From positions 1 through 23,975 of IMG/VR virus record IMGVR_UViG_3300023180_000398: a stretch of 23,975 bases of DNA; one strand, written 5' to 3'. The notes below the pieces were generated by a model. The model was not told where the DNA came from, ran no database searches, and was given only the letters and a program-made list of their open reading frames with translations. Made by a program: the position numbers and the translations under genes. Shown in pieces: positions 12,915 through 21,098 of the stretch. Numbering within the stretch: the first letter of the stretch is position 1; every line of letters begins with the position of its first letter. The DNA is from a virus.

Positions 12915-13156
12915 ATAATTAAATTTACTACTTCTCCGGTTTCTGGATCTGTATATGTATTTTTATCCAATTCAGATTGCGCGTATTCTTTAGATACTTC
13001 GTCGCAAGAAATACTAGGCGTCCAGGAATTTTCGTTCTCACCTTCTACAACCAAAAACTTATCTACAAATAATCGGAAAGATAAGCCTAAAGACTCTTTA
13101 TCCTCATGACTAATTAAGCCAGAGATTACTTTTTCTTTTAATTCAAAAACTTTCAT
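12911..13156 (-). CDS. Unknown small protein, accessory block
   Basis: An 81-residue acidic protein (KVFELKEKVISGLISHEDKE, FRLFVDKFLVVEGENENSWT) ending in DPETGEVVNLII. It has no membrane segment or recognisable motif. Its ATG shares a base with the TAA of the propeller gene (TAATG) and its TGA overlaps the next ATG, so it is embedded in a tightly coupled set of genes. A chaperone or partner for the fibre or propeller protein is conceivable, since small proteins often follow phage fibre genes, but the sequence does not show it. Confidence 0.55.
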   Translation of the reverse strand: MKVFELKEKVISGLISHEDKESLGLSFRLFVDKFLVVEGENENSWTPSISCDEVSKEYAQSELDKNTYTDPETGEVVNLII

Positions 13157-13989
13157 TAAGAATACTCCTCCGTTGAAGCTAAATAACTGGCACCACCAGC
13201 TGTAGCAAACCCTGCTGTAGTGCTACCACATCCATAAGTATCGCTTCTAGCTGTAGCTAAAGAATCAATACCAGACCAAGTACTACCATCGTAAGATTCA
13301 GCTGTAGTTAATTCTCCACCAGTATCATTTCCCCCAAACATAATAGAATCCGTCTGTGTCCCAAATGCTCCAAGATCTCTAGTTGCAGTTGTAATAGAGC
13401 CGCCACTACTCCAACTTGTACCATTATATTCTTCACATGTTGTAATTCTTGCGCCACTAGCACCAGCAATAACAAGACCAGCAGATAATGTTCCTGCTCC
13501 AGCGGGACTTTCATGATTAGATGATGATGCACCGCCACTACTCCATGATGTACCATTATATTCTTCTGTTGCGTTTGTTCCATTACCTCCAGTGCTAACA
13601 CCTGCTGACAATGTTCCAAATCCTGTGGGGTTTGCAATGCCGGTTGCTAAAGTTCCGCCACCGCTCCAGCTTGTACCGTCATATTCTTCAGTTACATCAC
13701 TAGAAACAGCGCCCGTCCAACCAGCAGCTTTTACACCAGCAGTTAATGTTCCAAATCCAGATAGCCCCCTTACCGCAGTTGAAACGGCTCCTCCACTTGA
13801 AAAGCTAGAACCATTATATTCTTCGGTAGAAGTAGTATTACTACCGCCAGTAACCCTGCCTGTTGCAACAAAGCTAGCAGATAATGTTCCACCTGCAACA
13901 TGGTTGTTTCTACCAGTAGATAATGATCCACCTGCTCGCCAGGTAACAGAAACATCAACAAATAGATATGGATTTACTAAATAAGGCAT
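13156..13989 (-). CDS. Six-bladed kelch-like beta-propeller protein
   Basis: A 277-residue protein made almost entirely of a 41-46 residue repeat. Each unit has an aromatic centre and Gly-rich strand (TSWSSGG type; aromatic at W17, F63, W108, W149, W193, W238), then a G-x-G-T segment, a second Gly strand, and TEEY-N-G. TEEY-like ends occur near 55, 100, 141, 186, 231 and 273. The first unit lacks its TEEY strand at the N-terminus and the protein ends with a lone TEEYS, the usual circular closure of a propeller. Six blades are therefore expected. Kelch-type propellers bind proteins or sugars. It follows a fibre-like gene by 3 bases, has an AGGA Shine-Dalgarno, and is probably a virion surface protein. 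Confidence 0.75.
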   Translation of the reverse strand: MPYLVNPYLFVDVSVTWRAGGSLSTGRNNHVAGGTLSASFVATGRVTGGSNTTSTEEYNGSSFSSGGAVSTAVRGLSGFGTLTAGVKAAGWTGAVSSDVTEEYDGTSWSGGGTLATGIANPTGFGTLSAGVSTGGNGTNATEEYNGTSWSSGGASSSNHESPAGAGTLSAGLVIAGASGARITTCEEYNGTSWSSGGSITTATRDLGAFGTQTDSIMFGGNDTGGELTTAESYDGSTWSGIDSLATARSDTYGCGSTTAGFATAGGASYLASTEEYS

Positions 13990-18133: not shown

Positions 18134-18205
18134 TGGGACGTAGCCAAGCGGTAAGGCAGCGGGTTTTGATCCCGCCATGCGCAGGTTCGAATCCTGCCGT
18201 CCCAG
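18134..18205 (+). tRNA. tRNA-Gln (anticodon TTG)
   Basis: The full cloverleaf is visible. The acceptor stem TGGGACG pairs perfectly with CGTCCCA. The D stem is GCC/GGC with loop AAGCGGTAA. The anticodon stem GCGGG/CCCGC has loop TTTTGAT, giving anticodon TTG (18166-18168). The variable loop is CATGC. The T stem GCAGG/CCTGC has loop TTCGAAT. The discriminator is G at 18205, and no CCA is encoded. The U1-A72 pair and G73 are known identity elements of bacterial tRNA-Gln. It lies on the plus strand, opposite to all protein genes, and ends one base before the terminase stop codon. It may be a translation-supporting tRNA or a trace of recombination with a host tRNA locus. Confidence 0.93.
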
Positions 18206-20836
18206 CTATTCAAAGCTTTTCTTATTGTTTTTTCTTTTGATTTGAGCACGCACATTCTTAGGATTGAAATCTTTATGCCACTGATCAGCGATCTCCAGAG
18301 GACCTTTTGGTAAATCAATAGTAATAGGGCGACTCATACATAAATATCTTAATGTATCCACCGCATGATCCTCCATTTTAGTATCTAAATCCTCAGGACG
18401 AGTATTGTCATATTGCATTATTGGTAAAGTTCTAATTAGGTTCTTGCATGTATTCATAATGTAGAGTAGGGGTTTTCCATCAACTCCCATAAGTCTATCT
18501 CTAATTTGTTGCCATCCTGCAATACGCTTATTATCAGCTGGATGGTACAAAACTCCTTCTTTAGCCATCTGTTCAGCAAGTGAAATACCACTACTTACAT
18601 CAAATATAGCAGGATCAGCAACCTGTATTCCCATCTCTTCTCCTATTTGCATCTGCCTCGTGTTTTTTGCAACTTCTCCTGCGGTTAACTTTATTCCTTG
18701 GTTCGGTTTTCCTGTGGTTCCATAGTATTCTCTATAAATTATTATTGAATCACGTGGATAAACTATAGGCTTTCCATTGATATTTATAATGCTGCCATCA
18801 CTTATTGCTCCCCATAACGTACAAAACGGCGCAGAATATCCCCAATCAAAGGCCCTGACCTTAAACCAACCAGCAGGGATGATAAATGAATCTATCACAT
18901 GTTTATCTTTATCCCATCTATCAAAATAGGCACCTTCTATTGCATCCCAATCACCCTCAAGCATAGCCTTAGCCATAGCCCCACCTAAACCAAGAAGCTT
19001 GGCTGAATATAGAGGATCGTTTTCCTGCATTGTTGGATTGTCAATCAATTTAGCAGGAATAAATTGCCTTAACATTCCACCTTCTTCATCAGGAACTTGG
19101 TAAACCTTCATAGGATCCTTATTGTCAATAAAGGTGTGCTTTACAAAGTCATGACCTATGCCACCAGGGTTAGAGGAGGCAATTATCTTAGGAAGCTTGC
19201 TTTTATATTTTTCAGGAACGTCTAATGACCCAAGACGAACACGTGATCTTAGGAATTTATATATATCTTCAGTAAAATGTGTAAGCTCATCTATTAGCAA
19301 TACATTAATTTCTACACCTTGATATTTATTTTTATCTTTTTCGTGTTGGCAGTGACATAGATGTATTTTGCTACCATTACTAAAAACTATTTGGTTAGAG
19401 CTGTAGTTAATTTTAACGCCACCAGAGTTAACAAAAGGGGAGAGTAGGTTAGCAAAACCACTTGGCCCATCTAAATGGTTCTTCTTAAGATCTTCTGATA
19501 GTCTACGGAAAAGATATATTTGTATATTAGGAATTTCTAATGCATATGCTAGCGCTATTACGCGCATTGCGTGGGAATTGTGAGTGGGAATAAAAGATCT
19601 GCCTGTTAAATATGTTCCTGTTGGACATGCTACGGTAATACAGCGCATAGGTACTGTTGGAATAGGCTTCACATCTACAATATATCTTCTTTTTGTAGTT
19701 GCCCTTAGATCTGTCATCTTTTGTCTATTTAGCTTTCTCTTGATCTTAAATACTGGAAAATCTGCTACAAATTTAAGCCTATGGCTATCTTTATATTTTG
19801 GATTTTTTTTACTTAACTCTTTAGTTCTTATGGTTGCTATTATTCCTAATGATGATATTAGTTCATGTACATCTTCTATTAAATCTCTATCTGATAATCC
19901 TAATTCACACTGACCCCTCTTATCGCAAGAGCCGTCTGTATCCATTATACCTTGTAGAAGCTCTTTTCGCTGCTCTATTGATGCTCTTAGATATTGGGTT
20001 GGGATTCTTTTTTTACCTAGAATCCCTAATAATTTAAGGTAATCTTTAAAATATTTAATTTTAACTCTAAGATAAGGCTGCTTATAGCCTTTAAGCAATC
20101 TTTCATACTCAATTTCTTCTGGAGCATGTTTTAAGCATTCTCTAAGATCAGACTCCAACATACCCATTAACCCTGTAGATTTACAACCATCACCTAACCA
20201 TAAGCCTAGTAAATAAGGCGATATTAATAAATCTTGTCTTGGCAAATCTAATGCGCCACAAACATCTACTGAATGATTAGGTCTTTCTATTTTACCATGC
20301 TTTATCTTTAAAGTTTTTAGAATTTCTTTCGTTGTTCTTTCTTTTCCCAATGGAGGTTCTTTATAAATATACTCTCTTTCTTGATTTAAGTTAGTTATAT
20401 TTATTTGAGATGATTTTTTTTTAGGATTCTCTAACGCTCTACTTGCTCTATTTTTTCTTCTTCTTTGCCTAAACTCTGGGGTTAATCTTAATGCCTGCTC
20501 CCTTTCTTTATCATTCATCGTAACCCAGAGGTGATTTGCATCACAATCTATAGATTCTCCTGTATTAAATATCACACTGTAACAATCAGGATTTTGATTT
20601 ACCTCATGTACAGCAGTAATCTCTGTTATCTGGCCTTTGCTATTAAAAACCTCATCACCTACTTTTAGATCGCCTATTTGAGTAAATTTAGAAGGAGTTG
20701 CTATAAGATTAGTTAGTCTCTCTGCTTTACCACCTCCTGCAGCACCACCATATAATATCTCTGTTGCATCACTTAGAAAACATTGTGATTGCTTGGGATG
20801 TAAGCTTAGGTTAATTTCCTCAGCCGTATTATCCAT
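18206..20836 (-). CDS. terL: Terminase large subunit, interrupted by an in-frame intein
   Basis: The 876-residue frame codes for a terminase of 493 residues once residues 38-420 are removed by splicing. The extein holds an N-terminal adenine-type segment (LHPKQSQCFLSDATEILYGG), a Walker A loop split by the insert (GGAAGGGK37 joined to S421-HAMRV), Walker B (NVLLIDE, Asp/Glu 516-517), a coupling motif (IIASSNPGG) and an RNase H-like nuclease with Asp664 (RAFDWGYSAP), Asp741 (QVADPAIFD) and Asp823/827 (MEDHAVDTLRY). It is the packaging motor: ATPase plus genome-cutting nuclease. The ATG overlaps the small subunit's end by 8 bases. Without splicing the ATP site would be broken, so activity depends on the intein. 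Confidence 0.95.
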   Translation of the reverse strand: MDNTAEEINLSLHPKQSQCFLSDATEILYGGAAGGGKAERLTNLIATPSKFTQIGDLKVGDEVFNSKGQITEITAVHEVNQNPDCYSVIFNTGESIDCDANHLWVTMNDKEREQALRLTPEFRQRRRKNRASRALENPKKKSSQINITNLNQEREYIYKEPPLGKERTTKEILKTLKIKHGKIERPNHSVDVCGALDLPRQDLLISPYLLGLWLGDGCKSTGLMGMLESDLRECLKHAPEEIEYERLLKGYKQPYLRVKIKYFKDYLKLLGILGKKRIPTQYLRASIEQRKELLQGIMDTDGSCDKRGQCELGLSDRDLIEDVHELISSLGIIATIRTKELSKKNPKYKDSHRLKFVADFPVFKIKRKLNRQKMTDLRATTKRRYIVDVKPIPTVPMRCITVACPTGTYLTGRSFIPTHNSHAMRVIALAYALEIPNIQIYLFRRLSEDLKKNHLDGPSGFANLLSPFVNSGGVKINYSSNQIVFSNGSKIHLCHCQHEKDKNKYQGVEINVLLIDELTHFTEDIYKFLRSRVRLGSLDVPEKYKSKLPKIIASSNPGGIGHDFVKHTFIDNKDPMKVYQVPDEEGGMLRQFIPAKLIDNPTMQENDPLYSAKLLGLGGAMAKAMLEGDWDAIEGAYFDRWDKDKHVIDSFIIPAGWFKVRAFDWGYSAPFCTLWGAISDGSIININGKPIVYPRDSIIIYREYYGTTGKPNQGIKLTAGEVAKNTRQMQIGEEMGIQVADPAIFDVSSGISLAEQMAKEGVLYHPADNKRIAGWQQIRDRLMGVDGKPLLYIMNTCKNLIRTLPIMQYDNTRPEDLDTKMEDHAVDTLRYLCMSRPITIDLPKGPLEIADQWHKDFNPKNVRAQIKRKNNKKSFE
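19577..20725 (-). mobile_element. Intein with LAGLIDADG homing endonuclease in the terminase Walker A loop (class 3 signature)
   Basis: The insert is residues 38-420 (383 residues), in frame. It starts with Ala38, not Cys or Ser (AERLTNLIATPSKFTQIGDL), and ends PTHN420 with Ser421 as +1 residue. Splicing motifs: block A-like start, block B ANHLW (His102, Trp104), block F MRCITV (Cys399) and block G THN (Thr418, His419, Asn420). The trio Trp at B:12, Cys at F:4 and Thr at G:5, together with a non-nucleophilic first residue, is the known class 3 signature. The endonuclease lies between B and F, with LAGLIDADG helices LLGLWLGDG (Asp216) and LLQGIMDTDG (Asp301). The intein probably homes into intein-free terminase genes. 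Confidence 0.93.
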
Positions 20837-21098
20837 CAGAACTTAACATAATGTTAAGAGAAGGGAGTAGGGGTCTTTCTTCATCATTAGCAAGAGCAGT
20901 TGGCACAACTCTTGGGAAGATTTTAGTATAGAAGGCTTCCAAATTTCTTTCATCCTTCATTGCCCACATCTTTAATCCTTCAGCGCCACCTAGGTTTTCA
21001 AATACTTCTTGAATTGCTTTCTTGCCGTTAGTTGAAACTTTGTTTGGCGTTCCTTTTTTTCTACCACCTGTTTTTGGAGATCCTTTTTTCTTTGCCAT
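20829..21098 (-). CDS. Putative terminase small subunit
   Basis: An 89-residue protein with a very basic N-terminus (MAKKKGSPKTGGRKKGTPNK), a helical middle (GKKAIQEVFENLGGAEGLKM, NLEAFYTKIFPRVVP) and a short acidic tail ending SLNIMLSSDG. Short proteins that begin with KKGSPKTGGRKKGTPNK are found just before the large subunit in podoviruses and act as DNA-recognition partners of the packaging motor. The stop overlaps the large subunit by 8 bases. The length is below that of P22 gp3, so it is a compact version. There is no clear Shine-Dalgarno; an out-of-frame ATG sits 8 bases upstream. The role rests mainly on position and the basic N-terminal pattern. Confidence 0.65.
   Translation of the reverse strand: MAKKKGSPKTGGRKKGTPNKVSTNGKKAIQEVFENLGGAEGLKMWAMKDERNLEAFYTKIFPRVVPTALANDEERPLLPSLNIMLSSDG

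Follow-up and report, generated by a model that had tools for sequence, protein, structure and literature searches.

A probable class 3 intein with a LAGLIDADG endonuclease domain in the Walker A motif of a tailed-phage terminase large subunit

Among mycobacteriophages, the terminase large subunit (TerL) is the main intein host, with the P-loop site known as TerL1-a and the class 3 inteins TerL1-c and TerL1-e (Kelley et al. 2016, PMC5050341), and TerL inteins have also been described in crAss-like phages (PMC7886860). A survey of 1701 class 3 inteins reported LAGLIDADG motifs in 82.5% of them (PMC7891396). Two class 3 inteins that have been dissected by experiment, Msm DnaB-1 and Mle DnaB, possess His65, Trp67 and a Cys located 21 residues before the Asn, and the same Cys, His and Trp were required in all three class 3 inteins that were mutated (PMC5222942). 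The terminase intein described here, which most probably belongs to this class, shares with Msm DnaB-1 and Mle DnaB both the His65/Trp67 numbering and the 21-residue Cys-to-Asn spacing.

The analysed DNA (hereafter the window) comes from IMG/VR as a virus record 23,975 bases long; an exact copy of it lies inside a longer IMG/VR contig, IMGVR_UViG_3300018424_000003 (34.5 kb). The ORF at 18206-20836 on the minus strand is a single open frame without internal stop and encodes 876 amino acids, of which residues 1-37 and 421-876 form TerL and residues 38-420 form the intein. The exteins carry both ATPase motifs and a terminase profile, as a phage terminase large subunit does: Pfam assigned them to Terminase_6N (PF03237), and PHROGs to several terminase large subunit families. 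Uninterrupted terminase relatives are 59-71% identical to the window TerL. The precursor is organized as follows:

20726..20836, minus strand: N-extein, TerL residues 1-37, ending in Walker A GGAAGGGK (translation; alignment to intein-free relatives)
19577..20725, minus strand: probable class 3 intein of 383 residues, Ala1 to Asn383 (limits set by 82 empty relatives; class by signature and profile)
18206..19576, minus strand: C-extein, TerL residues 421-876, beginning with Ser+1 of Walker A, with Walker B VLLIDE, the nuclease part and the stop codon (PF03237, PHROG terminases; 44-46% identity to TerL of Acinetobacter and Salmonella phages)

The intein of 383 codons is inserted between Lys37 and Ser421 (GGAAGGGK / S), within the Walker A loop. 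Two IMG/VR phages with TerL 68% and 60% identical to that of the window have GGAAGGGKSH and GGSAGGGKSH without insert. Intein-free alleles, which the first-pass annotation had proposed to look for in related phages, are numerous: 82 of the 84 related terminases with a readable P-loop are empty, the other two being the window's own phage and locus L037, which is occupied. When a subset of 75 terminases was clustered at 95% identity into 37 groups, 35 groups were empty and two were occupied. Since GG(A/S)AGGGK-S is contiguous in the intein-free relatives, both splice junctions are exact and the intein comprises 383 residues, so the insert at residues 38-420 (19577..20725), which the annotation had described as splitting the P-loop between GGGK and S, keeps its limits.

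Several other elements of the window and its relatives were recorded. A tRNA-Gln gene (anticodon TTG; 18134-18206, plus strand) lies between the portal gene and terL, overlaps terL by one base, the final one of its stop codon, and is 86.7% identical to the tRNA-Gln of Acinetobacter phage MD-2021a; it was the sole match between the window and named phages at the DNA level. An 89-aa ORF (20829-21098, minus strand; phrog_11043, unknown function) overlaps the terL start and, judged by its position, is a candidate small terminase subunit. A 277-aa ORF (13156-13989, minus strand) is built of TEEYNGTSWSSGG-type repeats with a kelch-like resemblance. Finally, a 4.4-kb contig from a Rickettsiales MAG (L194, JALREU010000115.1) carries an intein-free terminase 59% identical to the window TerL, which is either a weak hint at the host or a contaminating phage contig.

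Position 1 of the intein, fixed by the empty relatives, is Ala1 and thus offers no Cys, Ser or Thr nucleophile. At the other end, THN is followed by Ser at +1, with Thr at G:5, His-Asn and Ser+1 falling on the class 3 columns. The regions and residues predicted to carry out splicing are:

20396..20725, minus strand: N-terminal splicing (HINT) region, about intein residues 1-110, end approximate (matches residues 6-72 of 6rix/6bs8; AlphaFold/Foldseek)
20531..20533, minus strand: His65, block B:10, of the catalytic triad, an invariant column
20525..20527, minus strand: Trp67 at B:12, the Trp of the WCT triplet and residue 104 of the ORF, by aligned columns
19577..19690, minus strand: C-terminal splicing region, blocks F and G, intein residues 346-383 (alignments)
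19640..19642, minus strand: Cys362 at F:4, numbered Cys399 in the ORF and predicted to be the first nucleophile; found in all 107 class 3 sequences and in none of class 1
19577..19585, minus strand: Thr381-His382-Asn383, block G (Thr418-His419-Asn420 of the ORF), by aligned columns

A phmmer search of all PDB sequences returned the class 3 DnaB inteins 6rix, 6riy and 6bs8 as the best matches, at E values near 1e-13 and with the W, C and THN positions in register, and H65, W67, C362, T381, H382 and N383 were invariant in a 12-sequence alignment with phage inteins; chance similarity was rejected on these grounds. Over 107 other class 3 splicing domains, the signature columns contained H in 107, W in 105 (N in 2), C in 107 and T in 106 (S in 1). 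Profile models of the two classes, from both of which the window intein had been left out, gave it 126.5 bits with the class 3 model and 24.0 bits with the class 1 model. A tree of 115 splicing domains separated the classes with SH-aLRT 93 and placed the window intein within class 3, at a position inside the class that its 121 columns do not resolve. The THN ending was rejected as proof of class 3, because it is also found in the class 1 phage inteins JD001 and SeF1. The same two inteins lend some plausibility to a class 1 or class 2 type intein in which Ala1 and the block F Cys co-occur by coincidence and Ser+1 attacks directly. We consider this extremely improbable, since the combination of B:12 Trp and F:4 Cys is missing in all seven class 1 references (checked against PDB sequences), none of which has either residue, and since both profile and tree put the window intein in class 3; class 1 membership was rejected on the same three lines of evidence.

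With a probability of roughly 0.93, the element is a class 3 intein that carries a LAGLIDADG homing endonuclease and lies between Lys and Ser of Walker A in a tailed-phage TerL; it would splice by the class 3 mechanism and might act as a homing endonuclease. The first-pass annotation had proposed a class 3-type intein with Ala1 and a Trp-Cys-Thr triplet, and the signature columns, profile and tree agree with it: Cys399 and Trp104 do align at F:4 and B:12, and the intein falls outside class 1.

The window intein most likely splices via the class 3 route, for which we adopt the chemistry of characterised class 3 inteins (PMC5222942, PMC7664689, PMC3196547). In the 876-aa precursor, Cys362 (F:4), aided by His65 and Thr381 and packed on Trp67, would attack the Lys37-Ala1 bond, and the N-extein would be held on Cys362 as a thioester, the first branched intermediate. 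The N-extein would then pass to Ser+1, giving the second branched intermediate, and cyclisation of Asn383 would release the intein and join the exteins as GGAAGGGK-S, the product being a normal 493-aa terminase. The freed 383-aa intein, as a homing endonuclease, could cut empty terL alleles at the P-loop codons. Since the P-loop is split between Lys and Ser in the precursor, ATP binding would be expected to fail before splicing; RadA with a P-loop intein lost its ATPase activity (cited in PMC6195587). It had been suggested that the insertion puts ATPase activity fully under the control of splicing; the interruption of the unspliced P-loop stands, and regulatory control goes further than the evidence does.

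It should be noted that the block F position after CxxV, which is usually acidic (Asp in 80 of 107 sequences, Ala in 6 of 107), is Ala in the window intein, and this could slow splicing. The replaced Asp, along with the existence of inactive class 3 inteins such as Arth_1007 (PMC3196547), would suit a dead or splicing-poor intein and a terminase that is either non-functional or rescued by other phages. This is very unlikely, given that the intein has every residue shown to be necessary in class 3, that neither the ORF nor the TerL motifs are disrupted and that two assemblies contain the identical sequence, and we retain class 3 splicing as the preferred reading.

One further cysteine of the splicing domain has a counterpart in a described system:

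20582..20584, minus strand: Cys48, in the column of the redox cysteine Cys48 of M. smegmatis DnaBi1 (alignment)

Oxidation of M. smegmatis DnaBi1 induces a disulfide that links Cys48 to the catalytic Cys118 and blocks splicing; Cys48 was called non-conserved, and splicing failed in all Cys48 mutants (PMC6195587). In our sample, which leans towards relatives of the window, Cys occupies this column in 55 of 108 class 3 splicing domains (48 of 92 without near copies) and in none of the seven class 1 sequences. The column is the most Cys-rich of the splicing domain after that of the catalytic Cys, and at least 12 changes were mapped to it on the tree. A reversible redox switch, in which a Cys48-Cys362 disulfide formed under oxidative stress would keep the packaging ATPase off until the cell is reduced, is conceivable for the window terminase and for many phage P-loop class 3 inteins, and we hold it to be improbable. 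Because all Cys48 mutants of DnaBi1 failed to splice, the residue may instead be kept for structural reasons. Thus, the recurrence of Cys48 is a lead towards redox-sensitive terminase splicing and falls short of evidence for it; with Cys48 in about half of the sampled class 3 inteins, redox control of inteins becomes testable in many proteins.

Between the two splicing regions, the insert contains matches to LAGLIDADG_3 (PF14528, E 5e-11) and Hom_end (PF05204):

19721..20230, minus strand: predicted LAGLIDADG homing endonuclease domain, about intein residues 166-335, limits approximate (PF14528, PF05204; PI-SceI and I-DmoI folds)
20186..20212, minus strand: LAGLIDADG motif 1, LLGLWLGDG, with Asp179 (alignment)
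19931..19960, minus strand: LAGLIDADG motif 2, LLQGIMDTDG, with Asp264 (alignment)

An AlphaFold2 model of the intein, computed from an alignment of 37 IMG/VR and window inteins, combined a HINT and a LAGLIDADG fold (mean pLDDT 91.9, pTM 0.90). Its Foldseek matches included PI-SceI (E 2.7e-18) and other endonuclease-bearing inteins, with I-DmoI matching the endonuclease part and 6bs8, 6rix and 6riy matching the splicing part with an rmsd of 0.7-0.8 A over 69 columns. In the comparison with viral models, intein-bearing phage helicases and terminases matched best. With two motifs bearing acidic residues and a matching fold, as in LAGLIDADG endonucleases, the domain looks intact, and the intein may home.

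The distribution of the intein is patchy, which fits a homing element. An alternative scenario is that it was inherited long ago in this terminase lineage and lost from most relatives, rather than being a recent arrival by homing. Over 64 loci, similarity of the intein and of the C-extein to those of the window correlate positively (Spearman 0.56), so shared descent with losses has to be considered, and related inteins are often carried by GGAAGGGK terminases. However, the closest TerLs (about 70% identity) are empty, the closest intein (L114, 44% identical) is found in a TerL only 24% identical to that of the window, and L128 has a TerL 46% identical with an intein of just 38% identity. Moreover, L037 (IMGVR_UViG_3300000115_005369, 1-887), whose TerL is 68% identical to the window's, houses at the same codon a class 3 intein of dissimilar sequence, which best matches those of N1M2 and EL and is cut off by the contig end just short of the block B His-Leu-Trp. 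On balance, old inheritance appears the less probable scenario, though one to be taken seriously. Base composition is a weak sign of foreign origin, the intein having a GC content of 33.2%, compared with 36.7% for the window and 37-40% for the exteins. No direct sign of recent transfer was found among 50,697 phage records and IMG/VR, where the best intein relatives, the same phage aside, are 44-46% identical. Regarding the suggestion that the element still moves, the endonuclease does look intact, but no copy above about 46% identity was seen outside the same phage. The many intein-free sister alleles, together with one sister occupied by a different class 3 intein, make a set suited to homing tests into the P-loop.

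A number of unusual class 3 inteins were observed in other phages. The terminase inteins of Vibrio phages JSF3 (L023, 1474-2487) and D98a (L021, 235-1257) have Ala1, the F:4 Cys and THN, with Asn in place of Trp at B:12, and score as class 3 (131-136 versus 42-52 bits); rare deviations at the B:12 Trp (6.1%) were already reported (PMC7891396). The JSF3 intein is also present in its relatives JA-1 and VCO139, and a 57-60% identical intein occurs in over 30 Vibrio phage records. In phage ORFs of L143, L150, L153, L167 and L169, class 3 inteins occupy the site GDR(I/V/L)RG(R/K)-Q...THN-T, followed by (F/L)FDE, and this site just before a Walker B-like motif is a second hot spot. One frame of L159 (IMGVR_UViG_3300009548_000041) appears to contain two N-termini of class 3-like inteins, ALEVNELIPTPN and, behind RRGGK, LLSVEELIPTPT, both ahead of the last THN, suggesting two inteins within one protein. 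The class 3 intein of L146 (IMGVR_UViG_3300028026_000031) ends in SHN, with Ser at G:5, and not in THN.

Compared with known systems, the window intein is one more of an already described kind. The first-pass annotation implied rarity, but class 3 inteins are common in the P-loops of phage terminases: the P-loop GK-S/T site holds 88 of the 106 class 3 inteins collected, mostly in phage terminases (90 of 108 in the raw count, which includes two class 1 controls), and this survey marks the terminase P-loop as one of the main sites at which class 3 inteins reside in phages. Named terminase examples at this site include Stenotrophomonas SOVA965, Synechococcus B23, crAss-like DAC15 and Clavibacter CMP1. 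The closest intein in named phages is that of the Stenotrophomonas phage SOVA965 terminase, a class 3 intein 34% identical over 99% at a junction of the same type (GKGNGK-S), although it has Pro at position 1 and belongs to a different terminase family. The inteins of the terminase-like ATPases L114-L118 from IMG/VR, found at GxxGxGK-S, are 39-46% identical to that of the window, whereas their C-exteins are only 23-27% identical to its terminase. The mycobacteriophage TerL inteins likewise place a LAGLIDADG endonuclease intein in the terminase ATPase domain, TerL1-a at the same Lys-Ser/Thr junction, and the Dusk-type terminase intein, whose sequence we read here, is class 3 at the K-T P-loop site; they differ from the window in intein sequence (about 26-30% identity) and in terminase family. 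Finally, the DnaB inteins of M. smegmatis (6bs8) and M. chimaera (6rix, 6riy) share with the window intein the WCT triplet, His65, Trp67, the Cys-to-Asn spacing, Cys48 and the HINT fold, but are mini-inteins without endonuclease in a bacterial helicase. To these, the window adds a well-bounded, probable class 3 intein from an uncultured phage lineage.
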